From: a virus
Reading direction: 5' to 3' (one strand)
DNA: 21,418 nucleotides
Virus record (IMG/VR): IMGVR_UViG_3300030406_001549
Coordinates: 1-21,418 of that record
Shown here: piece after piece, positions 790-18,525 of the stretch
Numbering within the stretch: position 1 is the stretch's first letter
How the letters are laid out: each line of letters begins with the position of its first letter
The notes under the pieces: generated by a model
What the model saw: the letters and a program-made list of their open reading frames with translations, nothing else
Database searches by the model: none
Told to the model about the DNA's origin: nothing
Translations under genes and position numbers: made by a program

Positions 790-1614
790 TTAGAATTTAA
801 TTTGTGATCGTTCTAATTTATCATATACATCCTGTCTGTATGCAGGATCGCTCTCATACCTAGGATCACCCATGGCACGTACTACTTCAGCTTGACTACG
901 GAAACCATCCACTGCTGTAGATGCTTTACCTTGAATCATGTCTCCTTCTGTTCCCACGGCATCTTGGTATCGATAATAAAGTGCTTGTAAAGCAAAGTTG
1001 ATAGTGTTTAAATTACCAGCTTCAAGAGCTTGATCATATGCTTGGATCTCTTCTGGTGTGAAATTCTCCTGAGCCCATGATGTCATGTTCTTGTAAGCAT
1101 CAGCACCACCTACTGCATTCTGTATAGAATCTATATCTGCATCAGATAAAGGAGTGCTTTCAGCTGCAGGTGTATCATTACTTTCAGGTAAACTTTCTTG
1201 AATACGATAGTAAGCATCAACTAAATCTTTACTATCCATTTTATAAAGAGCTTCTTTAGACTCTTCTGACAATTCTCCCTTCTCATCATATTCATTAGAA
1301 GCTTGGAAAATTGCCTTAGCATTTGGATCATCCTTAAAAGGATCTTCCTCGTCTACGTCTTCTGATTGATCTTCTTCTTTGGCTTCGGGCGGAGCATCTT
1401 CGTTTTGAGTTTCCTCCTCCGGTGTGCCAAGTTTTTTCTGGAGTTCGATGTAAGCTTTCTCAAGTTCTTCAGCGTCTTTGTATTTACCAGCTAAAAGTTC
1501 GTCTTGTTGTTCAGCTAATTTCTCACCTATTTCTAATGCCTCTGCATCGCGCTGGTCTTCAGCTTCGATGGTATCAGGGTCATTAGCAGGATCATACGTT
1601 AGGTTTATCGCCAT
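790..1614 (-). CDS. Capsid assembly scaffolding protein (T7 gp9-like)
   Basis: Likely the internal scaffold that directs procapsid assembly and leaves before or during DNA packaging. The 274-residue product is very acidic in its first two thirds, with long Glu/Asp-rich stretches (for example DVDEEDPFKDD near residue 90) and predicted helical character. The C-terminus, ending KLERSQIKF, is more basic, as in scaffolds that contact the capsid protein. Length and acidity fit T7 gp9-type scaffolds (roughly 300 residues), and it sits directly downstream of the portal gene block, as in T7. The ATG at 1614 lies inside the end of the upstream 88-residue gene (23-base overlap). The call rests on composition plus gene order rather than on catalytic motifs. 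Confidence 0.85.
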   Translation of the reverse strand: MAINLTYDPANDPDTIEAEDQRDAEALEIGEKLAEQQDELLAGKYKDAEELEKAYIELQKKLGTPEEETQNEDAPPEAKEEDQSEDVDEEDPFKDDPNAKAIFQASNEYDEKGELSEESKEALYKMDSKDLVDAYYRIQESLPESNDTPAAESTPLSDADIDSIQNAVGGADAYKNMTSWAQENFTPEEIQAYDQALEAGNLNTINFALQALYYRYQDAVGTEGDMIQGKASTAVDGFRSQAEVVRAMGDPRYESDPAYRQDVYDKLERSQIKF

Positions 1615-1858
1615 AATTAGTTTTCGTTTCTAGCCCTCCGAGACCAACTGAAGTAACGATACCCCCAGGCGGGTGAATATTAGGCTCACCTATCTTAGTT
1701 TCCTGAGCGTACTTAAATTTATTAGTATCGAAGGAGGTGGGTTTTGCAATTTCATTGCTTTCAAATTTAGACTCTGCCTTTGGTGCAGGTTTAACTCTTT
1801 TTGTAGCTACTCTTTTAGGACGGGTAGCTTTATTCTTCGAAGGATTCTGCGATGTCAT
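1592..1858 (-). CDS. Hypothetical 88-residue basic protein between portal and scaffold
   Basis: Not recognised. The N-terminal 30 residues are very basic and rich in Pro and Ala (KNKATRPKRVATKRVKPAPK), followed by a more neutral segment with Gly-rich residues near the C-terminus (GGIVTSVGLGG). No membrane segment is seen. It overlaps the end of the portal gene by 29 bases and the start of the scaffold gene by 23 bases; such compact packing at both ends of an intact frame favours a real gene. The basic, disordered-looking N-terminus could bind nucleic acid or the acidic scaffold, but this is inference only. Confidence 0.7.
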   Translation of the reverse strand: MTSQNPSKNKATRPKRVATKRVKPAPKAESKFESNEIAKPTSFDTNKFKYAQETKIGEPNIHPPGGIVTSVGLGGLETKTNYGDKPNV

Positions 1859-3419
1859 TTACTACTTCTTCTGCATTAGGGTTTTTAGATGGATCAGCTA
1901 TTGGTGAATTAACGAATTGCCCTGCTTGCTTAGTAAGCTCCATGTTCTGTTCAGCTTCAGCAGCTTGTGCTGCTTCTTCGTTTCTATCATCCATAGACTT
2001 GACAAGGTTGAGTACATCAATACCTTGTGCGGCAGCCAGACGTTTGATAGCTTCATCAGCATTAATGAATTGCATCATAGCCTCTGGTCCGAGGGTCTGA
2101 GCAATAGTCGTGATGAATTGTGTAAGGCTTTCTCTATCTTGTCCACGTCCTAAAGCATTGATACCTGCTACGATAGTAGGGTTAACATAATCTTTAGGTA
2201 TGCGTGGTATCTCACCATTTCTTTGAAGGATGAGAAGTTTTCTATTTAAATATGGAACTAGGAATTCAACAGTTAACAGTGAGAATAGCCCGCCCAATTG
2301 TTGTTCTAATTCAAGTTGTGTGAGGCGTACCTCTTCTGCTGTAGTTCTCTCAGATTGTCTAACGTTTAAGACAAGGTGAGCATCAAGCAACCTTCGCTCT
2401 AAACTTTGCATCATGTTAGCAGCGGTAGCAAAGTCAGCAGTCTTACCCACTTGGATAACACCGATGTCATCTGGTCGTCCTTGGACGATGGCTCCGTTGC
2501 CTGCAGAAGCGATTGTCTGGGGCTTTGTTGTGCTTGAAGGTGATACGGTAAAGATTACTTTAGCGGCTGCTGCAGAGCCTTCTACGAGTGCCTGAGAGAG
2601 CGCCTCTAATGACCTGAAGTCACCAAGGAATTCCTCTACTCTACCACGTCCGTAGTTCTCTCCATCAATCGAGTTGAATCTTAGTACCAACCATGGGCTT
2701 GCGTCCTTAGGCGCTTTACCCTGTGTTCCTGGTATGAGCTTATCAAATGCTTCTTGATGCCATACCCATTTGTTTCCTTTTAGTTTTACACAAGTGTAAA
2801 CATCAACATCCTCTTCATTTCGTGACCCGATCCCACCACCTACGTCACCAGGACTGTTAGGGATAGATTCTAATTCTTTAAGACCATCGGGTAGAAGATT
2901 CCGATTGATAACTTCTTTCGTTACGATCTCAATAACGTTACCATTACCGTCGCGTTCTACGACATATCTATTCAATGGATAATGCTTAAGACCATCCTTA
3001 CCCATATATAATAGGGCGTTACCACCTACAACTAGATGTTTGATTGCTTGGTGTACGGTAACTCTATCACTAGAAGCAGCGATAGAATCCATGACCATAC
3101 GCTCTAGTTTAGAGAAACTTAAGTCAAGTTCAGATCGTACCTCTGGTGGGAAGTCTTCTCCTAATTTGTCATCTCTAATTTGGAACTTAAAGAAGGTACT
3201 CTGTGGAGGTAACAACGCAAGCATTAATTTTGCTGCTAGAGTTACGACACACTTAGAACCAACTGATTGCCAAGGTGTATCTAGTTTGATATGTGATGTT
3301 CTACCTTCATCGTTTTGAATGAGGTAAGGAAGTGTAAGCTTAGAGCATTGAACAGCTACATCAAGAAATTGTGTACGATGTTTAGTAAGGTTATCGTATC
3401 TTGTGCGTGCGTACTGCAT
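1830..3419 (-). CDS. Portal (head-tail connector) protein, T7 gp8-like
   Basis: Encodes the dodecameric portal that forms the DNA entry and exit channel at one capsid vertex and contacts terminase and tail. The 529-residue length matches T7-type connectors (T7 gp8 is 536). The N-terminus (MQYARTRYDNLTKHRTQFLD) and the PWQSVGSKCVVTLAAKLMLALLPP segment near residue 50-70 are typical of the family, as is the ERTTAEEVRL motif in the second half. The C-terminal tail is Glu/Asn-rich. It follows the gp7.3-like gene with a 3-base gap and overlaps the next small gene by 29 bases, the T7 order 7.3-8-9. Confidence 0.95.
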   Translation of the reverse strand: MQYARTRYDNLTKHRTQFLDVAVQCSKLTLPYLIQNDEGRTSHIKLDTPWQSVGSKCVVTLAAKLMLALLPPQSTFFKFQIRDDKLGEDFPPEVRSELDLSFSKLERMVMDSIAASSDRVTVHQAIKHLVVGGNALLYMGKDGLKHYPLNRYVVERDGNGNVIEIVTKEVINRNLLPDGLKELESIPNSPGDVGGGIGSRNEEDVDVYTCVKLKGNKWVWHQEAFDKLIPGTQGKAPKDASPWLVLRFNSIDGENYGRGRVEEFLGDFRSLEALSQALVEGSAAAAKVIFTVSPSSTTKPQTIASAGNGAIVQGRPDDIGVIQVGKTADFATAANMMQSLERRLLDAHLVLNVRQSERTTAEEVRLTQLELEQQLGGLFSLLTVEFLVPYLNRKLLILQRNGEIPRIPKDYVNPTIVAGINALGRGQDRESLTQFITTIAQTLGPEAMMQFINADEAIKRLAAAQGIDVLNLVKSMDDRNEEAAQAAEAEQNMELTKQAGQFVNSPIADPSKNPNAEEVVNDIAESFEE

Positions 3420-3422
3420 AGT

Positions 3423-3770
3423 TTAAACTTCTACTTGTCCTGAACCAGCACCGCCGCCACCGCCGTATGAAGCTTGTGGATCTAGTGCGATTCTAGTTTT
3501 ACTTGTTTTCATAGCCCTCTTTCTCTTCTGACTCAGCTTACCAGAGGATAAACCTTTGTTAATACTGCCAAGGTTAGATCCTTTAAAGGTTTGACCTTGT
3601 GCTTTACGGACAGCATCCAATTTGTTTTTCATCTGTTGCATCACAGCTTCATTCTCAGCTCTGACTTTAGCAGCTGCTTCTTCTGCTGCCTTTCTAGCTT
3701 GGGCTGCAGCCTCTTCAGGTGTTGGCCCTTGGTACTTAGGAGTCTTTCTTTTCTTTTTAAATCTAATCAT
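3423..3770 (-). CDS. T7 gp7.3-like virion assembly protein
   Basis: A 115-residue protein with a basic N-terminus (MIRFKKKRKTPKYQ), an Ala/Glu-rich helical stretch at residues about 18-50, a second basic patch (KRKRAMKTSKTRIAL), and a Gly-rich tail with five consecutive Gly. T7 gp7.3 (99 residues, small tail-assembly virion protein) has the same arrangement: basic N-terminus, Lys/Arg-Ser patch, then a Gly-rich end. T7 gene 7.3 also lies immediately upstream of the portal gene, as here (3-base gap). I infer the same role; sequence similarity alone is low-complexity and would not prove it. Confidence 0.65.
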   Translation of the reverse strand: MIRFKKKRKTPKYQGPTPEEAAAQARKAAEEAAAKVRAENEAVMQQMKNKLDAVRKAQGQTFKGSNLGSINKGLSSGKLSQKRKRAMKTSKTRIALDPQASYGGGGGAGSGQVEV

Positions 3771-3774
3771 TGTA

Positions 3775-4236
3775 CTAAAGATTTTTTGATACTAAAACGG
3801 ATTCTTCTTTCCAACCACTGATTTGTATAAGCTTCTTTGCTAAACCTCTTCTAGCTACAGCAGCTACTGCACAACATCCGTTGGCTCTACCGTAATCTTC
3901 TACTGTATAGAATTGATCATACCATTTCTGATAGTCTTGACCTGATACAGTAGCCCAGATATGTATGTCCAATACTTTAAAGCGTGGCCACTCTGAGATT
4001 TCACATACCACAATGGATTTTATATGATCACTGTTTAATGATCTAAAATTTCCATCGAAGTCCATCTCTAAGCCGACAACTAATCGGACATCACCTCGGA
4101 TGATCATGTCATGAAAATCATTTGCATTGAGACAATCATCCGATCTGTTCTGGGTCTTTTCTATTAAAGGTTTTACTCCATGCCATACAAAGTGTGTTAA
4201 TTCTATAGGCACAAAGTGGAAAGCAGCTTTACTCAT
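3775..4236 (-). CDS. Conserved phage protein, possibly GNAT-like (T7 gp13-like)
   Basis: 153 residues, no membrane segment or signal peptide. The C-terminal half, with RANGCCAVAAVARRGLAKKL followed by a segment ending SVLVSKNL, resembles phage proteins with an acyltransferase (GNAT)-like fold, where a basic RxG-type loop precedes a helix and a final strand. T7 gp13, a small assembly protein, belongs to similar proteins, but it lies elsewhere in the T7 map. The classic acetyl-CoA loop (Q/RxxGxG/A) is not clear, so enzymatic activity is doubtful. The ATG at 4236 overlaps the upstream stop by eight bases. Confidence 0.5.
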   Translation of the reverse strand: MSKAAFHFVPIELTHFVWHGVKPLIEKTQNRSDDCLNANDFHDMIIRGDVRLVVGLEMDFDGNFRSLNSDHIKSIVVCEISEWPRFKVLDIHIWATVSGQDYQKWYDQFYTVEDYGRANGCCAVAAVARRGLAKKLIQISGWKEESVLVSKNL

Positions 4237-4416
4237 TGATCCTGTTTTCGTACCACTCTACAACAGAACGTTGCCCAGCTTTATACATAATGCAAGGCAA
4301 GTCTTCTTTAGGATGTGGATTGACAGGTGGAAATCTTTCTTCCATTTCAGTAAGAAGAGATTCAGGATTCGGACCTAGTATAGGTTCAAGCGTACTGCGG
4401 GAGGTTTGTATTTGCA
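4229..4416 (-). CDS. Hypothetical 62-residue protein downstream of nrdB
   Basis: Not assigned a function. I chose the ATG at 4416 (MQIQTSRSTLEP) because longer versions read deep into the nrdB frame. The protein has Pro-rich stretches (ERFPPVNPHP) and ends with a helical segment containing YKAGQRSVVEWYENRI, a kind of motif found in short conserved cyanophage proteins near the ribonucleotide reductase genes (from memory, unverified). It overlaps nrdB by 31 bases and the next gene by eight bases. Confidence 0.7.
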
Positions 4417-5108
4417 TGTTCAAAGAATGCTGGCATACGGGCTCTCTGTGTCTCAGAAAATTCAGGCGCTTTGCCCTCATACATTAAGCGATCGCTCGCA
4501 TCCAGCCAAAATTTTTTGTCCAAATATTTATCGGTAGTATTTATACCTAGAGGTTGAAGAACCCAGTTAATTGTGGCCTTCCTAAGTTTATCCAAAGAAG
4601 GAGAAGGAGATAAGCCCAACTCGCTACATACAAGAGTATTTGCTCCGACATGGATCTGCTCGTCCCTTGAGATGTCGGCAGATACAGTGCGAAGAGCAGC
4701 GCACCCATTAAACCTAAAGAAAGGGAGTAGAACGAAGAAGATGGCCCGTTCTGCGACCAGAGCTTTGGTAATTGTGTGATCAGGGTGTGCAATCCAGGCA
4801 TCTCTTAATAGTTTTCCTTCTTTTTCTGCATTTTCATCTGCACCATACGTGTCTACTATGTATTGTAAAGCAAGATCATGTCTTTCTTCATCTTCTACAT
4901 TCGATTCTAGTAATGCTCTAGCGTTGTCGGGAACAGTCTTTTCAAGACCTTCCTTGATAAAGGAACCAACTGGTAGCTCCATATGACGTATTGCGAGAGA
5001 ACGCATGATGGCTTCTTCTGCTCCATCTTTAAATATACCTTTGGTGGGTTTTACGGGGGACCATTTGCGTTTACGGTCCAATAATTTATCATAAGGATGT
5101 TTTCTCAT
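4386..5108 (-). CDS. nrdB: Ribonucleotide reductase class I small (beta) subunit, ferritin-like
   Basis: A 240-residue helical protein with the six-carboxylate/histidine pattern of class I reductase beta subunits: Glu44, the ExxH pair Glu74/His77, Glu120, and the second ExxH pair Glu150/His153. The spacing of Glu44 to Glu74 is close to that of E. coli Asp84 to Glu115. The residue four after the first metal-ligand His, which is the radical Tyr122 in E. coli, is Leu81 here, so a standard tyrosyl radical cannot form at that site. It is shorter than bacterial NrdB (about 320-375 residues). It is encoded directly after the alpha subunit with a one-base overlap (TAATG), as expected for partners. 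Such a short beta was recognised late in marine cyanopodoviruses, whose enzyme had been filed as class II. Confidence 0.85.
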   Translation of the reverse strand: MRKHPYDKLLDRKRKWSPVKPTKGIFKDGAEEAIMRSLAIRHMELPVGSFIKEGLEKTVPDNARALLESNVEDEERHDLALQYIVDTYGADENAEKEGKLLRDAWIAHPDHTITKALVAERAIFFVLLPFFRFNGCAALRTVSADISRDEQIHVGANTLVCSELGLSPSPSLDKLRKATINWVLQPLGINTTDKYLDKKFWLDASDRLMYEGKAPEFSETQRARMPAFFEHANTNLPQYA

Positions 5109-6487
5109 TATTCTTGACAGTCACAGGTTATCGGCTCGTTTCCGAGAATATCCTGTAAGTAATCATCGACTTCGGCTTGATCTAATGCAGCATACGCATC
5201 GGTCTTATCTTGAGTGTCGCCCATTACTTGCAGGGAATAGTAAAGGGAGGTCTGGGGTGACAGTAACCACTCTTCCACGAATTCACGATCGTAGGTTACC
5301 ACATCACTCCAAGAGTTGAATGAGTATCCGTGAAGAAGTCCCGTATTGTTATACATAATCATTATTTGGTCAGCGACATGCTTGTAAGCATCCCAACCAA
5401 CTTCTGAGGCGATTTCAACTTCGCCATAATCAAAGTATTCTACACCAAAGGTTCCACTGTCACGATCGACAGAGCGGGCTATTGGTGGTGCTATCTCTGG
5501 CGTGGCTGTAAAGCCTTCTGTGTCTTTACTTCTGTAGGAACAGGAAGCGGTAGGAGCGATAGCAAATGCTCGTACCATGTTGTTTTCTTTTGCGATCTTT
5601 GCAGCGCCATGGATTCCTAATTTTAAGTTTAAAGCTAATTGGTAGGCTATACCAGTATTAAATTCGCCTTTGTTTACACTTTCCAATGCTCTACCAAACT
5701 CATCATACCTTACTCGGTACTTGTGGAGGAGGTTGGCGAGGCCGAGTATTCCGAGCCCAACTTGGCGGTCGATATCAGCTGGCAAGTATTCTCCAGTTGC
5801 TCCAACACCTGTCCTGCTATGGAGCTCGCACAGCTCGGACATACCTTGATCGAAAGCCTCTGTGATGGTGCTGATGTCACAGGCTGCGAGATTGACATGC
5901 TGTAACAGGCATGTCCCACGTGAGGGCAGGTAAACCTCAAGACAGACGTTGCCATAAATTCTTTTTCCGTTTGTGTCGTATTTTACTTTGTTTAGCCAGA
6001 TATCACCTGACTTAATGCCATATAATAAGGCATCTTTTACTTTATTATCACAGCTTTGCCACCATCCCGTATCAATATCGACGCATCTTTTGACCCATGG
6101 GAGTTCGGCTCTAGGAGTAGTAATAAACTCGAGGATGTCGCTATGATTAAGGTCCAAATGAAGAACCACAGCGCCATTCTTGTAGATTCCACCTCGTCTG
6201 AGTGTTTCATTAAGTGATGAGTAGATTTTTCCAAAGGATACTGGTCCAGAAGCTGTAAGACCTTTTCCGTTTTCTGCTCCTTTGGGACGGAGCTTAGATA
6301 GATGGACCGCAACTCCCGCTCCAAATCTGAGTCCGTGGCTGACATATCGCCAGCTTGCTTCAATTCCATTTTCTCCCTCCATAGAATCCTCTACGACGAA
6401 AACGGTACACGAAACCGGGAGTCTTGATTCAGGATTATCCAACCATGATTGGACCCGCCCTGTGCGAGATATTAAACTTGCAGTCAT
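5108..6487 (-). CDS. nrdA: Ribonucleotide reductase catalytic (alpha) subunit
   Basis: Reduces ribonucleotides to deoxyribonucleotides for phage DNA synthesis. The 459-residue chain has the finger-loop motif NVCLEV with Asn180, Cys182 (thiyl radical site) and Glu184, a first redox Cys27 (PVSC), a likely partner Cys193 (GTCLLQHVNLAA), the phosphate-binding APTASCSY loop, TPEIAPP, and a C-terminal Cys-x-Cys (Cys455, Cys457) suited to re-reduction of the active site. It is far shorter than bacterial NrdA (about 750) and lacks an N-terminal ATP-cone, so overall activity is probably not shut off by dATP. The start at 6487 lies one base after the MazG-like stop. The adjacent beta gene argues for class I rather than the cobalamin-dependent class II. 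Confidence 0.93.
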   Translation of the reverse strand: MTASLISRTGRVQSWLDNPESRLPVSCTVFVVEDSMEGENGIEASWRYVSHGLRFGAGVAVHLSKLRPKGAENGKGLTASGPVSFGKIYSSLNETLRRGGIYKNGAVVLHLDLNHSDILEFITTPRAELPWVKRCVDIDTGWWQSCDNKVKDALLYGIKSGDIWLNKVKYDTNGKRIYGNVCLEVYLPSRGTCLLQHVNLAACDISTITEAFDQGMSELCELHSRTGVGATGEYLPADIDRQVGLGILGLANLLHKYRVRYDEFGRALESVNKGEFNTGIAYQLALNLKLGIHGAAKIAKENNMVRAFAIAPTASCSYRSKDTEGFTATPEIAPPIARSVDRDSGTFGVEYFDYGEVEIASEVGWDAYKHVADQIMIMYNNTGLLHGYSFNSWSDVVTYDREFVEEWLLSPQTSLYYSLQVMGDTQDKTDAYAALDQAEVDDYLQDILGNEPITCDCQE

Positions 6488-6488
6488 T

Positions 6489-6881
6489 TCAAATTAAATC
6501 AGATAGATCAGGTGGTTTATAATTTGGTCCCTTTAGAACCTTCCCATCTTCTCGATATATTGGATTACCATCCTCATCGAGTTTGGACATATTACTTTCG
6601 TGAACTCTATTTAACGCTTCATCAAGAAACCAATTCATATTCTCAGCGTATTGATAGCATACATATACTAGATCAGCTAGTTCTTTGAGTGCTTCTTCTT
6701 GTGCATCAGGGTGTTGTCTAAATAACGAACTTTCTGATTCTAAGAACTCTTTAAATTCTTCAACAATTAATTTCTGTTGTACCGATCTAGTAGATCGATC
6801 ACCGCTATTTGGAAGTCTATACTTCTTCCGAAACTCTTTCGCTTGGTCTGACAAGAAGGTTTTCTTCATGCTCAAGTTCAT
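6489..6881 (-). CDS. MazG-like nucleotide pyrophosphohydrolase
   Basis: A 130-residue helical protein with the metal-binding MazG/HisE pattern EExxE (Glu41, Glu42, Glu45) followed after about 22 residues by ExxD (Glu67, Asp70, in KELADLVY). These enzymes hydrolyse (d)NTPs or ppGpp-like nucleotides to monophosphates. The C-terminal EDGKVLKGPNYKPPDL segment is frequent in phage MazG-like proteins. The ATG at 6881 is used here; a second ATG at 6869 gives MKKTFLSDQ and less overlap with the upstream gene. It is followed one base later by nrdA, so a nucleotide-pool role fits. Substrate cannot be told from sequence. Confidence 0.85.
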   Translation of the reverse strand: MNLSMKKTFLSDQAKEFRKKYRLPNSGDRSTRSVQQKLIVEEFKEFLESESSLFRQHPDAQEEALKELADLVYVCYQYAENMNWFLDEALNRVHESNMSKLDEDGNPIYREDGKVLKGPNYKPPDLSDLI

Positions 6882-12599: not shown

Positions 12600-14939
12600 T
12601 TAACAGAAAAAATAAGTGGAGTCAATTACGGTTTCCGGTTCAAGGTCACCAATAATCGGTGGTTCAGTCTCCGCTCCAATTTGGGAAGCGAAGTAAGTTA
12701 AATAATCATGCTTAGCAAAGAGCTCCATATAGGTTTCTCTAACTATAGCAGACAAGATGGACATATCTGTAGCTCTACATAGTACACTATCGTGTATTAA
12801 AGCTATTGGGTTATCAAATCTATTAACGCTAAGGTGTAGAAGAGAAGCATCTAATGAGTGAATTAAGTTAGGAGCTGTCGCTGCCTTATGCCTTAATTTA
12901 TCTACTTCATTACTATCTTCAGTAGCAACACTAAGTTTACATCTACCTAATAATTGAAGATTCAGTACTTCTACTTTCTTCTTCATTATCTTCTGCTTAA
13001 CTTTAAAATTAGATGGTGTTACCCATTCTATTTCAGTTAGACCACGACTAATAGCCTTGGATACTTCATCTTCTATCCATTTCATAACTGACATCGGTCC
13101 TGGTACAACATGATGCATAGCATCTCTAACAGCTTTAACCGTCGTTGTCAGGTCATCCTTGTCAATATCCATACCTATTTCAGAGAGTGCATCTCTAATG
13201 TAGGTACGATTCGAATAAGGTTTAGCGTTGTAAGGCACTGTCATGACCGTTCTTTTTACGATCTTCCTGTCCATTACTTTCTGTATGTGTGCAGGGCAGT
13301 TCCATTTAGCTACATCCGCTACAACCTTATAAGCGTCCTGTGGTCTCTCAGACGGCAACACGTTGACGAGTCGCGCTGTCGTTTTATCTCTAGCTAATCC
13401 AGCTAAGATCTGGAGACCACTACATGTAGCGTCTGTGGCAACAGGCAGTCTAGTTGTCTGTCGGCGTTGTGTAATGACACAAGCATAATACTCTTCACAA
13501 CTAGCTAAAAATTGCCACGGCTCGTCCGCTGCCTCCCAGTCACCAAGGTTATCAATCGGATCCTTAGCTACTCTAGTAATCAACGGAATGTTATCATTCG
13601 TCCATGATAGCCTTTCAGCCATCGTAGCTTTGTCTAATCCATACGTAGTTGCACATGAAAATGCTAACCATTCTCCTGCTTCTGGTGTTACAACTGACTC
13701 ATTAGAAAAACTAATCAGTGACTTACCCCAGTCAGTGTCTTGAGGCGTGAGGAATGAAGGTATAGGGTATGCCCTTCCACGGTAATCAAAAGACCACGGT
13801 ATAAAGAACTCTTTACCTTTAAACTTCTCAACTGCCTCCATAGTCATCCTAGTACGACACGAACGTCTAAATGCATAGGCATTGGTATTCATGACCTCAG
13901 CAGCGGCTCTACGGTAGCTCTTACGAGCTTCCTTATCCTCCTCTATATTAGGAGGCTTAGGAGGTAGAGGCAACTCAAGTATAGGAATGAACTTCCCAAC
14001 ACTCACCCCCCTCTTCTGGAGGATCTCAGCGACGTTCACTGTGAATGGATTCAGGCGGTATCCAACCTTCTGAATTCGATTCAAAAAGTCTACGGGAGTA
14101 CCTTCCTGTATAGGGGCGTCATGTGTACGCCTGACCATAGGGTTACCACGCATGACCTCATTAAGCAAGTAACCACCAGCCCTTTTAGGCTCCCAGTCGT
14201 TAGGTTCAATGAGCATAGGCCATGCTAGTGGAGCAAACATCTCACTATCTGCCATTACTTTATCCTTAATCTCTAAGAATTCAGGAGTTGGCATCAAATA
14301 ATTGTTTGTTTTGTACCTACTTTCTCTTCTTATATCCTTAAAGAACCAATCTGAAGCCTTTAAGAAACAATCTAATAACCAAGAACCAAGCTTAGTTCTA
14401 TTATTCTGACCCCATGTAACCCACGGTTGCACATCATAACGATTCCAAATGGTTTGTATAACTGTGATCTTTTGACGTGTACCGATTGAGTTATGCCAAT
14501 ACCTATCCTTAAGTACTTTTAAAAGACCTGGGGCTGTAGATTCATAGTACCTCATTTGGCACTCATCTTCAATAGCATTACCTATCGCTTCTGCTACTTT
14601 GACTAGTATATTACTACCTTGTTTATGGCTAAATACTTTATCAAATGTAATCTTACAGGTTATAGTAGCTGATGCTAAAGGTTCTAATTGTGATACATGT
14701 TCTTTAATTAATTTGAATTGATAACCTGTACCACGTATTAACCTATCATGCATACTACTTTCAATCTGCTCTACAACTTTAGGTAATACACTTTCAATAG
14801 AAGTTACACCATATACAGTGGCAGATGCATAACTTTTACCCTCTAGGTTAGATGTATTATCATGTAATCGTTTGTAACCTTGAGAGATCTGTTCTCTTTC
14901 TAACCGTATCTGCTCATCAATCTGTGATGGTGTGGGCAT
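12600..14939 (-). CDS. T7-type single-subunit DNA-directed RNA polymerase
   Basis: Transcribes middle and late phage genes from phage promoters. The 779 residues are shorter than T7 gp1 (883). Motif A is TDATCSGLQ with catalytic Asp503; motif B is DRKIVKRTVMTVPYN with Lys562 and Tyr570 at the positions of T7 Lys631 and Tyr639; motif C is ALIHDSVLC with catalytic Asp717. The DYRGRAYP segment at 385-392 is the T7/T3 signature. The chain ends with an aromatic foot (YFFC), like FAFA in T7. A strong ribosome binding site, GGGGAGG, lies upstream of the ATG at 14939, inside the end of the preceding 50-residue gene. The enzyme marks the switch from host-read early genes. Confidence 0.98.
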   Translation of the reverse strand: MPTPSQIDEQIRLEREQISQGYKRLHDNTSNLEGKSYASATVYGVTSIESVLPKVVEQIESSMHDRLIRGTGYQFKLIKEHVSQLEPLASATITCKITFDKVFSHKQGSNILVKVAEAIGNAIEDECQMRYYESTAPGLLKVLKDRYWHNSIGTRQKITVIQTIWNRYDVQPWVTWGQNNRTKLGSWLLDCFLKASDWFFKDIRRESRYKTNNYLMPTPEFLEIKDKVMADSEMFAPLAWPMLIEPNDWEPKRAGGYLLNEVMRGNPMVRRTHDAPIQEGTPVDFLNRIQKVGYRLNPFTVNVAEILQKRGVSVGKFIPILELPLPPKPPNIEEDKEARKSYRRAAAEVMNTNAYAFRRSCRTRMTMEAVEKFKGKEFFIPWSFDYRGRAYPIPSFLTPQDTDWGKSLISFSNESVVTPEAGEWLAFSCATTYGLDKATMAERLSWTNDNIPLITRVAKDPIDNLGDWEAADEPWQFLASCEEYYACVITQRRQTTRLPVATDATCSGLQILAGLARDKTTARLVNVLPSERPQDAYKVVADVAKWNCPAHIQKVMDRKIVKRTVMTVPYNAKPYSNRTYIRDALSEIGMDIDKDDLTTTVKAVRDAMHHVVPGPMSVMKWIEDEVSKAISRGLTEIEWVTPSNFKVKQKIMKKKVEVLNLQLLGRCKLSVATEDSNEVDKLRHKAATAPNLIHSLDASLLHLSVNRFDNPIALIHDSVLCRATDMSILSAIVRETYMELFAKHDYLTYFASQIGAETEPPIIGDLEPETVIDSTYFFC

Positions 14940-16533: not shown

Positions 16534-16673
16534 TCAATACACTCCACGTCTACTAAGTAATCATCCATTAAACAAGCTTCTTCATAAGCTTCGTAGGCAA
16601 TGTCATATTCATCACCATCATGTTCCATTACAAAGTCTCTACCAGATGATAGAGTAACGTGATACTTAGGCAT
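16530..16673 (-). CDS. Small acidic protein, 47 residues
   Basis: Not recognised. The ATG at 16673 (MPKYHVTLSSGRDFVMEH) is chosen over upstream starts because those read through the stem-loop at 16697-16744. The product is strongly acidic (EYDIAYEAYEEACLMDDYLV) with no membrane segment. The leader before the ATG is TTTCACAGTCAAC, with no Shine-Dalgarno, a sequence shared with other early leaders. The stop overlaps the oxygenase GTG start. Confidence 0.75.
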   Translation of the reverse strand: MPKYHVTLSSGRDFVMEHDGDEYDIAYEAYEEACLMDDYLVDVECIE

Positions 16674-16696
16674 GTTGACTGTGAAATAACAATAGT

Positions 16697-16744
16697 GAGA
16701 GATTGTGAGTCTCTCAGTAAATCCCCGAAGGGACTTAGAGAGAG
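16697..16744 (-). promoter_or_regulatory. cUUCGg stem-loop with competing hairpin (copy 1)
   Basis: Minus strand. CTCTC, a 2x2 internal loop, an 8-bp stem closed by C-UUCG-G, and GAGAG form one long hairpin (16744-16711). GAGAGA can instead pair with TCTCTC at 16702-16697 around a 7-nt loop. It lies in the leader of the 47-residue gene, upstream of TTTCACAGTCA. The shared core with copy 2 is TCTAAGT, the tetraloop and ATTTACTGAG. Confidence 0.75.
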
Positions 16745-16746
16745 AA

Positions 16747-17013
16747 TCATTTAAGGTTCTTGATTTTGTTAACAACCTCTTTCAATTCTTTAAAGGCTTG
16801 ATTAACTTCATAGTTGTTAATCTTCATTCTATTCTTGAAGTCATCCCATAGAGCATTACGGTCAATGAGTTGAATGTCAGGTAGATGTGATTGCACTTTA
16901 GTTAATGTAACAGGTTGTTGCTTGGTAATAGTTACCTTTGATTCATAAGTTTGTTCAGTCATTGTCTTCTTCCTCTTCCTAACTGGCCGAGGTTTGAGTG
17001 TCGTTGTGGACAT
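16747..17013 (-). CDS. Hypothetical 88-residue basic early protein
   Basis: Unrecognised. The first 20 residues are basic and Thr/Arg/Lys-rich (MSTTTLKPRPVRKRKKTM), the middle is Thr/Val/Gln-rich, and the last 40 residues form a charged helix (FKELKEVVNKIKNLK) that may be coiled coil. A nucleic-acid-binding role is possible from charge alone. The leader before the ATG at 17013 is TTTTCACAATT, without Shine-Dalgarno. Its stop is followed within two bases by a cUUCGg stem-loop. Confidence 0.7.
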   Translation of the reverse strand: MSTTTLKPRPVRKRKKTMTEQTYESKVTITKQQPVTLTKVQSHLPDIQLIDRNALWDDFKNRMKINNYEVNQAFKELKEVVNKIKNLK

Positions 17014-17036
17014 AATTGTGAAAACGGGTGAACAAA

Positions 17037-17115
17037 TGGGAGTGTTAGTCCCAAGGCCAGACTAAGGAATCGAACCTTAGTGTTTACCATACTGGCAGAA
17101 GGCTATTTGCCTCCT
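17037..17115 (-). other. tRNA-like RNA module D
   Basis: Minus strand, three stems in a row. Hairpin AGGAGGC-AAATA-GCCTTCT over the stop codon (17115-17097); minihelix at 17096-17056 with outer stem GCCAG/CTGGC, a 12-nt linker containing TGGTAAA (D-loop-like), and a canonical T-arm with 7-bp stem and loop TTCGATT; then hairpin TGGGA-CTAACAC-TCCCA (17053-17037). A complete tRNA does not fit: anticodon arm and full D-arm are missing. Confidence 0.75.
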
Positions 17116-17285
17116 AGTATATCATCCTCCTCATCATAACATATCTGCTCTTCGATACATTTGAGGAGGTTTGTGTAAACAATTGCTACATCTTCATCAG
17201 GATGTTGTGAATTAGTACGCAAATAATCAAGAATGAGATACCATTGAGTTTCATTTAGCCCTACATAGTAGAGAGTTTCAGACAT
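17103..17285 (-). CDS. Hypothetical 60-residue acidic early protein
   Basis: Unrecognised. The ATG at 17285 (MSETLYYVGLNETQW) overlaps the stop of the upstream gene (ATGTCTGA), so I prefer it to the TTG one codon earlier. The sequence is helical and acidic, with a C-terminal EEQICYDEEDDILGG. The stop codon lies inside a 7-bp hairpin (17097-17115) that directly abuts a tRNA-like minihelix. Confidence 0.7.
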   Translation of the reverse strand: MSETLYYVGLNETQWYLILDYLRTNSQHPDEDVAIVYTNLLKCIEEQICYDEEDDILGGK

Positions 17286-17535
17286 CAACTTGTTTCTCTA
17301 ATTTAGCTTTAGCCCTGCTAACTTGTTGTTCATTGTATCTCTCAGCAGCAAAGTCTGCTGTTGTTAAATGAAAACATTCAATACGGTATTCATCACCGCA
17401 AGATGTATAACAAGACTTTAGTCTATACATTACAGCATCAATATTCTCAAATATTCCTAAGACAGTAGGTGAACCATCGTAAGGACAAATTGAAACAAGA
17501 GTGTAATACTGAGGAGTGTTCGGTTTGTTACACAT
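17278..17535 (-). CDS. Hypothetical 85-residue early protein
   Basis: Unrecognised. Cys is frequent in the middle (KSCYTSCGDEY, IECFHL), and the C-terminal 25 residues form a charged helix (QVSRAKAKLEKQVDV). The pattern TLVSICPYDGSPTVLGIFEN followed by a helix suggests a small alpha/beta fold. The leader TTTTCACAGTCA lies upstream of the ATG at 17535, after a switch-like stem-loop at 17557-17609. It overlaps the next gene by eight bases. Confidence 0.7.
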   Translation of the reverse strand: MCNKPNTPQYYTLVSICPYDGSPTVLGIFENIDAVMYRLKSCYTSCGDEYRIECFHLTTADFAAERYNEQQVSRAKAKLEKQVDV

Positions 17536-17556
17536 AAGGCTGTGACTGTGAAAATA

Positions 17557-17609
17557 GAGTGATAAGAACCACTCAGTAAATGTTAACCGAAGTTAACACT
17601 TAGAGAGTG
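17557..17609 (-). promoter_or_regulatory. cUUCGg stem-loop with competing hairpin (copy 2)
   Basis: Minus strand. CACTC, a 2x2 internal loop, an 11-bp stem closed by C-UUCG-G, and GAGTG form one long hairpin (17609-17570). The same GAGTG (17574-17570) can instead pair with a second CACTC at 17561-17557. It lies in the leader of the 85-residue gene, upstream of TTTTCACAGTCA. Confidence 0.75.
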
Positions 17610-17613
17610 AATC

Positions 17614-17691
17614 TTAAGAATGATTAGTTACATTCTTTAAGAAAATGTAGAGGAGGATTGATAAACAAATCCAGACAATGATTGAAGTCAT
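17614..17691 (-). CDS. Possible 25-residue single-pass membrane microprotein
   Basis: An open frame of 25 codons from an ATG at 17691 to a TAA at 17614. The ATG overlaps the TGA of the upstream 151-residue gene (ATGA), the classic arrangement for translational coupling. The product is almost wholly one membrane helix: IIVWICLSILLYIFL, followed by a polar tail KNVTNHS. A 7-bp hairpin ends at the stop codon, and a conserved cUUCGg stem-loop begins four bases after it, the same gene-end arrangement as at other early genes. Chance cannot be excluded for a frame this short. Confidence 0.5.
   Translation of the reverse strand: MTSIIVWICLSILLYIFLKNVTNHS
17616..17637 (-). other. Hairpin at the stop of the 25-residue gene
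   Basis: Minus strand AAGAATG-TAACTAAT-CATTCTT, 7 bp, ending at the TAA. It belongs to a series of hairpins at early gene ends. Confidence 0.6.
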
Positions 17692-18143
17692 AATTGAGCA
17701 TATCTTGAGTCAGTCATACTACAAACAGGATTAAATCCGTTCTTTTGTAGTAATTCAACTTCTGACTTAGAATAATTAGCATACAATTTGATGGGTTCAT
17801 CATCATCTTCATTGCTTAATTCCTCACATGTTGTTGACTCATACTCATCAACGATTTGAGAACAAATACATTCAACGTAGCACCAAGTTACATCATTTTT
17901 ATACATATCAAGACAGCAATCATTAGCTGTAAAGATATTACTTAAGAACTCAGTTCCGAAGCTTGTAATAATGTAGTCGGTAATCTCTTCTTCATAGTTG
18001 TCAAAGAACTTGATGGTGTCAGCATAATATATGTATTGGCTGCACACACCAGATTGACAACCATGATCAGCGATTTCCTTCGCTTCGTTGTAATCAATTG
18101 TCTCAATGATTTCGTCATAAGCTGATTCAAACTGTTTGCTCAT
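17688..18143 (-). CDS. DUF7222-like acidic, Cys-rich early protein
   Basis: 151 residues from the ATG at 18143 (MSKQFESAYDEI); the preceding GTG and ATG-like codons would read through a hairpin, and the leader CTCACAACAAC before this ATG resembles other early leaders. The segment EIADHGCQSGVCSQYIYYAD then TIKFFDNYEEEITDYI matches the pattern of a phage family of unknown function I recall as DUF7222. Ten Cys residues and an acidic block (SNEDDDEP) are notable. No function can be assigned. Confidence 0.7.
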   Translation of the reverse strand: MSKQFESAYDEIIETIDYNEAKEIADHGCQSGVCSQYIYYADTIKFFDNYEEEITDYIITSFGTEFLSNIFTANDCCLDMYKNDVTWCYVECICSQIVDEYESTTCEELSNEDDDEPIKLYANYSKSEVELLQKNGFNPVCSMTDSRYAQL

Positions 18144-18248: not shown

Positions 18249-18276
18249 GTTATACTAACTGCCGCGTGACTGTGAA
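18249..18276 (-). promoter_or_regulatory. Weak candidate promoter P3
   Basis: On the minus strand TTCACA (18276-18271), 16-base spacer, TATAAC (18254-18249). No upstream box is present, and the TTCACAGTCA part is shared with two leaders that are not promoters, so this may be a chance match or a leader remnant. Confidence 0.35.
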
Positions 18277-18281
18277 TGTTA

Positions 18282-18296
18282 ATTAGTGAGACTAAT
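18282..18296 (-). other. Hairpin over the stop of the KTSC-like gene
   Basis: Minus strand ATTAGT-CTC-ACTAAT, 6 bp with a 3-nt loop, containing the TAG. Confidence 0.55.
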
Positions 18297-18525
18297 CAGT
18301 GAAGCCTAATTGATAAGGTCTCTCAGCATTTAATAGGTTAGTGTTAACCCAACTGCCGATAGATGTATCAGGTGTTGACTTATAAAGAAGCTCACGAATT
18401 GCATCAGCTGCTACATCAAAGTATGTGTACTTTCCGCCGTTCTTAAACTCTACTTGAGCGATTCTTTCAAGTTCATCAACATTTAGTTGGTTAACAGCAG
18501 AAGATTTTACGTTGAGTGATTGCAT
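18292..18525 (-). CDS. KTSC-domain-like protein
   Basis: 77 residues, start ATG at 18525 (MQSLNVKSSAVNQLNVDE). The order SSAV, a strand, VEFKNGGKYTYFDV, a helix ending ELL, and SIGSWVNTNL fits the small KTSC domain (SSxI ... xxFxxGxxYxYxxV ... G.xxNxxI), found alone in phages and fused to lysyl-tRNA synthetases. Its function is unknown, with links to RNA suspected for the fused forms. The stop lies within a short hairpin (18282-18296). Confidence 0.65.
   Translation of the reverse strand: MQSLNVKSSAVNQLNVDELERIAQVEFKNGGKYTYFDVAADAIRELLYKSTPDTSIGSWVNTNLLNAERPYQLGFTD

Follow-up and report, generated by a model that had tools for sequence, protein, structure and literature searches.

The 3' hairpins left by RNase III stabilise the messages of phage T7. 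We folded five T7 intercistronic stretches, at the sites R0.3, R0.5, R1, R1.1 and R1.3. In the folds, an upper stem of about 9–13 bp carries a small loop and stands over an irregular lower stem, from which an internal loop mostly separates it. For T7-like cyanophages, we know of no description of early-message processing. Attenuators and translation-gated leaders offer a second, general point of comparison, and PeSLs, the repeated intergenic stem-loops of T4-type phages, a third; PeSLs are described by title as composite promoter–terminator motifs in PMC4503421.

An RNA element upstream of a cyanophage RNA polymerase gene

The DNA analyzed here (the window) is a 21.4-kb cyanophage fragment whose main genes lie on the minus strand and encode the terminase, head proteins, ribonucleotide reductase, DNA polymerase, primase and a T7-type RNA polymerase (RNAP; 12600–14939). 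The closest named relatives by polymerase include 7B11-B, S-B28, S-RIP1 and S-CBP1 (67–70% identity). A conserved RNA element of T7-like cyanophages occurs twice on the minus, coding strand, at positions 16697–16748 (copy A) and 17557–17613 (copy B), and both copies sit in the early region, upstream of the RNAP gene. Both had been noticed in a first-pass annotation of the window, and both were found again by a covariance model built without it. That annotation spoke of two copies; these are real, but the element is far wider, and we collected 77 distinct copies, one to five per early region. We propose that the element, lying between early genes, most likely marks a cut site in a long viral message, the new end of which is then protected.

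The element consists, in order, of an arm X (9 nt), a 2-nt side of an internal loop, the P2 stem-loop, CT, an arm X' (9 nt), a loop, and an arm X'' (6 nt). Two mutually exclusive pairings are available to X', either with X upstream (P1, enclosing the variable stem P2) or with X'' downstream (P3). Copy A, read from 16748 to 16697, is made up of X (GATTCTCTC, 16740–16748, the 5' strand of P1, beginning with the GA of the upstream TGA stop codon), TC, P2 (TAAGTCCC-TTCG-GGGATTTA, 16718–16737), CT, X' (GAGAGACTC, 16707–16715, the 3' strand of P1, its first six bases doubling as the 5' strand of P3), ACAA, and X'' (TCTCTC, 16697–16702, the 3' strand of P3). Copy B, read from 17613 to 17557, has X (GATTCACTC, 17605–17613), TC, P2 (TAAGTGTTAAC-TTCG-GTTAACATTTA, 17577–17602), CT, X' (GAGTGGTTC, 17566–17574), TTA, and X'' (TCACTC, 17557–17562). 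The outer arms are CTCTC/GAGAG/CTCTC in copy A and CACTC/GAGTG/CACTC in copy B; these five-base arms pair upstream and downstream as first described, although the upstream pairing is longer than had been noted, with nine positions that include one mismatch. The cUUCGg loop, given as part of the motif, caps P2 in both window copies but is not defining, as most copies have other loops. In predicted energy, P1 is favored over P3 by 4.6 kcal/mol in copy A and 3.3 kcal/mol in copy B; across 34 computed copies the gap runs from -2.5 to 6.4 kcal/mol, seven of them being mis-anchored with void energies.

No Rfam 15 family reaches its gathering score anywhere in the window, and the five sub-threshold matches in 16600–17700 (E 0.66–9.2) are not credible. 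We found no description of the element among the listed titles and abstracts of open-licence PMC papers on cyanophage podovirus hairpins, promoters and RNase III.

Our first search patterns used only the foot of P2 and the start of X', and they found the element in other viral contigs; chance matches (L010, L229, L230, L231, L232, L234 and L235) were dropped before counting. A covariance model of 27 copies (R1, alignment A1) brought up many further copies in related phages, in their early regions, and a second model (R2) comprised 61 copies. In both, the structure had the second base pair one column off; a third model (R3, 21 copies, built without the window and without L011) uses the right structure, whose second base pair is paired in 59 of 59 rows of alignment A3. 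On the coding strand, R3 finds copy A at 72.4 bits (E 3.7e-15) and copy B at 50.7 bits (E 4.4e-10), where the E values are rough, and it also gives one weak mirror match of copy A on the opposite strand (E 0.006). R2 gave 80 matches at E up to 0.05 in 45 loci, with none in those loci on the strand opposite known copies. It matched three of the 14 named cyanophage records searched (NATL1A-7, P-SSP10 and S-CBP3), isolates in which a defined, covariation-supported RNA element is directly testable, and it had no match in T7 800–6700.

The 77 distinct copies come from 81 listed, namely the 80 R2 matches less two partial ones (L167 3410 and L158 3772) plus three isolate matches; matches from a later scan on X' and X'' alone are not included. 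Up to five copies lie in one locus (L167), and four in L144. Opposite-strand matches that appeared to be mirror images of palindromic copies (L218 5332, L224 1200, L011 4828, L009 382 and L220 11920) and two mis-anchored ones (L169 127 and L220 11198) were dropped, leaving 66 of 73 copies for the P3 and mismatch counts. A reading of seven "TGTAAG" copies as lacking P1 was rejected: the models show an insertion of up to about 110 nt in P2, with an intact P1 further upstream.

Among 80 polymerase loci, R1 matches place the element in 30 of the 58 whose upstream sequence runs to 1 kb or more, and in none of the 22 with less. The element is not indispensable, because 28 of those 58 relatives lack it at the thresholds used and only three of the 14 named records carry it. 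In the genomes searched whole or nearly so (S-B28, NATL1A-7, S-TIP37, S-RIP1 and one further contig), the sole match was that of NATL1A-7.

Both alternative pairings of X' covary and are conserved

Alignment A3 holds 61 aligned copies in 59 distinct rows. Over P1 and P2 together, 96.6% of its cells are paired and 13 of the 16 pairs have changed on both sides. The covariation score is 0.479, compared with 0.142 in shuffled alignments (0 of 500 as high) and 0.02–0.10 in slid controls, a shuffle figure that is not to be read as a probability because A3 was fitted to nearly this structure and its rows are related. In 27 long copies found by pattern, with no requirement for P1, positions 4–9 of X and 1–6 of X' are paired in 152 of 162 cases (137.0 when shuffled, 0 of 20,000 as high); with each distinct pair counted once, the figure is 76 of 84 (69.2 when shuffled, 167 of 20,000 as high). 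P3 lies outside the model. In 61 distinct copies, 355 of 366 P3 positions are paired, compared with a mean of 333.0 when X' was shuffled among copies (0 of 5000 as high), X'' being taken at its best placement in each case and likewise in the shuffles.

Individual changes bear this out. X' departs from its consensus 39 times in 65 distinct copies, with P1 kept in 36 cases and P3 in 34. Where X' begins GATTGA, its partners are CAATC or TAATC upstream and TCAATC downstream (L161, L164 and L225); GAAGGA faces CTTTC and TCCTTC (L167), and GATGGG has changed partners on both sides (L227). One exception is a GAGTG arm facing CTCTC (single copies in L011 and L233), in which P1 is broken at one pair while P3 is intact. 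Position 1 of X' has changed in ten copies, P1 being kept in all of them and the outer pair of P3 lost in four, which counts against the processing site proposed below. The proposal that one arm has two exclusive partners, both preserved by compensatory change, is supported by the 32 of 39 departures that keep both; homologues with only one of the two pairings, named in the first-pass annotation as evidence against it, are the exceptions, most copies keeping both. We conclude that both alternative pairings of X' covary and are conserved structure.

Copies selected on the other pairing gave the same structure. We scanned for the sequence of X' and X'' alone, demanding no P1, and obtained 33 viral stretches. 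Their locus ids were already known in 14 cases and new in 19, but five of the new ones (L258, L260, L261, L263 and L266) were contigs already in the set and were not counted as new. P3 predicts P1, because in 13 of the 14 contigs new to the set the matched place proves to be a whole element, P1 and P2 included (E there 1.3e-9 or better, and 3.9e-9 in L269). In the fourteenth (L268) the element is cut by the contig end (23.7 bits). These contigs include near-identical copies (L255/L271, L259/L267 and L254/L268). In 84,980 bacterial and archaeal species, with one genome each, the X'/X'' pattern matches three times, and none of the three is an element.

Some features of the element are fixed and others free. 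P1 has nine positions, and the third is mismatched in 65 of 66 copies (T.T 23, A.C 18, C.C 13, T.C 10 and C.T 1). This position is paired in one of 65 distinct copies, compared with 6.8 in shuffles (15 of 20,000 as low), and A never stands opposite T, contrary to the expectation from composition; in two copies outside the 66 (L144 713 and L236 13716) the mismatch lies one position further in. A U-G wobble is retained in P1 in 47 of 66 copies. On its right side the internal loop reads CT or AT in all 65 copies. The sequence of P2, by contrast, is largely free, with 53 distinct versions in 65 copies and a length of 18–78 nt (longer in a few others); TAAG...TTTA pairs within P2 in about 40 of 59 rows. 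Beyond P3, T has a frequency of 0.47, 0.56, 0.70 and 0.56 at positions 2, 3, 5 and 6, in a pattern that is roughly ATTGTT.

Placement between early genes and readings of the element

The element is phase-locked to a stop codon, lies at a fixed distance from the next start codon, and is confined to the early region. Of the 77 distinct copies, 48 have the stop of an open reading frame (ORF) of at least 25 codons at offset -1 to -3 (-1 in 37, -2 in 7 and -3 in 4), with any other offset occurring at most four times; when any stop triplet is counted with no ORF test, the figure is 57 of 65. The first ATG of an ORF of at least 35 codons lies 15–27 nt past the element in 61 of the 73 copies for which one was found (median 21), and all 42 copies for which the RNAP position is known have the RNAP gene downstream, with no such position on record for 24 of the 66. 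In S-CBP3 the element begins within the TGA of the gene ending at 1715, and in NATL1A-7 and P-SSP10 the next genes begin about 20–21 nt past it.

In the window, copy A begins inside the TGA of an 88-aa gene of unknown function (phrog_27005, 16747–17013, minus), and copy B follows immediately on the TAA that closes an unlisted 25-codon ORF (MTSIIVWICLSILLYIFLKNVTNHS, 17614–17691, minus), in keeping with the stop codon reported upstream of each. The reported order of leader, TTTCACAGTCA and start codon likewise holds: TTTCACAGTCA lies 10 bases beyond copy A (16676–16686, minus) and 3 bases beyond copy B (17543–17553, minus), and is followed by the start codon. Stop-codon readthrough, considered for copy A only, is rejected because the upstream and downstream frames differ.

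Relatives of the 25-aa ORF in other phages likewise end at the element. They form a micropeptide family (MTSxIVxxCxxILLYIFLKNTINHx) with one likely membrane helix, seen in six phages (the window, L011, L144, L223, L233 and L213, the last being NATL1A-7, where it is not annotated) with its stop codon at the element. A second family of 30–33 aa, (M/V)SSWIVPxYCALCLxxFYxxWVxDHNxPRY, also ends at the element (L143, L144 2454, L138 4441 and L233 2407). Elsewhere in the window, a stretch between genes at 17033–17103 (minus; ggttcgattcctta) looks tRNA-like by eye; the likeness may be decayed or due to chance, since ARAGORN finds no tRNA in the window.

We tentatively interpret the element as an intercistronic processing site in the early polycistronic mRNA, similar to a T7 RNase III site and with refolding in addition, a reading to which we assign a probability of roughly 0.45. 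We infer the cutting, its enzyme and position, the refolding and the protection as follows. Before the cut, P1, with P2 stacked above a 2x2, mostly pyrimidine internal loop, would give a long irregular hairpin of a type in which RNase III makes a single cut, at the internal loop. Cleavage would fall on the 3' side of this loop (CU or AU before X') and would give the upstream mRNA a 3'-terminal hairpin, P2, directly past its own stop codon. With the covalent link between X' and X severed, X' would refold with X'' to form P3. The downstream mRNA would then begin with this hairpin, placed about 21 nt ahead of its start codon and expected to impede 5'-end-dependent RNase E. P1 and P3 forming in turn would account for the freedom of P2, the constant CU or AU and the fixed length of P1, as well as for the spacing to the start codon and for P3 beginning exactly where the internal loop ends.

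Published observations are consistent with these steps: cyanobacteria are reported to have one to three RNase III genes (PMC10989914), and RNase E is reported to be slowed by base-paired 5' P ends (PMC3997798). If this reading is correct, one sequence would serve first as a nuclease substrate and next as a protective 5' hairpin, and such protection would matter because host rne expression is reported to rise in infection by the T7-like phage P-SSP7 (PMC10989914). Several points count against processing. The sequence of X', the CU and parts of P2 is conserved, although RNase III is undemanding as to sequence; four of the five T7 sites show no such refolding downstream; the element is absent from about half of the relatives; and the stop codon overlaps P1, so a terminating ribosome would melt the supposed substrate.

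The same overlap suggests the main rival, a reversible, translation-gated switch in which a terminating ribosome covers X and lets X' pair with X'' (P3), P1 forms when no ribosome is present, and the fold adopted determines how accessible the next gene is or how it is processed. The phase-locked stop codon and the covariation of both P1 and P3 agree with such a switch, as do the two states being close in predicted energy, where a modest gap is suitable, and the weakening of P1 by the U-G wobble and the near-constant mismatch. The start codon, however, lies about 21 nt further on and outside P3, the upstream genes are mostly ordinary and unlike one another rather than dedicated leader peptides, and no sensor is evident; we consider the switch possible but doubtful. 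Interconversion and sequential cleavage are not separable by sequence, and we favor the latter. A stop-codon-sensing relay, in which a terminating ribosome on X and an endonuclease at the internal loop choose between the competing folds, would combine the two, and we judge it unlikely. Under such a relay, the translation of each early gene would gate the processing and stability of the next message, with up to five switches per operon.

The first-pass annotation offered "RNA switch or attenuator", of which the two alternative pairings stand but the attenuator does not. As a transcription attenuator, P3 and the U-rich sequence after it would be a terminator and P1 the antiterminator, or the element would be an RNA antiterminator acting on the host RNA polymerase. 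T is indeed enriched after P3, and P1 excludes P3. We reject this as the main reading because no uninterrupted T run follows P3 (T reaches at most 0.70 at one position). Certain P3 stems are also A/T-rich (GATTGA/TCAATC), and the element recurs between successive early genes, where up to five in a row before the RNAP gene would tend to silence that gene. An attenuator is, on balance, improbable.

The element could also be a protein-binding or mobile regulatory cassette, similar to PeSLs and copied between intergenic positions together with a phage promoter. The candidate promoter is TTCACA[AG]TC, which looks like a phage promoter core and recalls GACTCACTATA of T7. It varies in concert between phages (GTCA, ATCA or ATCG), many of which use their own variant throughout. 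TTTCACAGTCA is itself a separate multi-copy element, often found with no hairpin, and in one relative TCACAGTC has a strand count of 11 to 0 in 7–23 kb. Such a cassette would suit the several copies per genome, the presence of TTCACAGTCA or a phage-specific variant inside or just past P3 in some copies, and the conserved sequence of X' and TAAG..TTTA. Against it, many copies have no TTCACA element nearby, P2 sequences differ among copies of one genome, and the compensatory changes in P1 and P3 require an RNA that folds. Nor is the TTCACA class linked to the RNAP specificity loop: it does not track the loop residues in 31 G-class and 23 A-class proteins, and near-identical loops occur in L181 (G class) and L186 (A class). 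We therefore give the cassette little credence.

TTCACAGTCA occurs in the window at 16676, 17543, 18267, 15960 and 8053 (minus) and also in L240–L242 and NATL1A-7 (L213); it is strand-biased and multi-copy, lies in early and middle regions, and is found within polymerase, primase and exonuclease genes as well. The third intergenic occurrence in the window (18262–18325, minus) is preceded by a different hairpin (GATTAGT CTC ACTAATT), which the covariance models do not match; the same stretch is present in L136. By eye, TTCACA-rich loci (L163, L181, L190, L194, L195, L198 and L204) seem to have no hairpin, and hairpin-bearing loci (L158, L167, L168, L175 and L176) seem TTCACA-poor, as if the two elements substituted for each other.

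Comparison with known systems

Like attenuators and translation-gated leaders, the cyanophage element has one arm with two exclusive partners and adjoins a stop codon. Unlike them, it has no terminator and generally no dedicated leader peptide, and it is repeated between several genes; of the features expected of an attenuator, the mutually exclusive pairing is present, whereas a terminator hairpin with a T run is not, the T enrichment being broken and weak. The element resembles the PeSLs of T4-type phages in being a repeated intergenic stem-loop of the early region (PMC4503421). It differs from PeSLs, as described there by title, in the covariation of its two alternative stems and in lacking a terminator run after them.

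In T7 sites the internal loop is mostly asymmetric, whereas the cyanophage element has a 2x2 loop, a P1 fixed at nine positions, a fixed mismatch and P3. Four of the five T7 sites have no conserved downstream refolding partner; the 3' product of R1.1 can pair at six of six positions downstream, which is weak evidence because 72 placements were tried. The element nevertheless shares with T7 RNase III sites its intercistronic position in the early transcript and a long irregular hairpin of upper stem, internal loop and irregular lower stem, the last of about 10 bp. The lower stem of R0.5 includes the stop codon of gene 0.4, just as the cyanophage P1 overlaps the stop codon of the gene upstream.
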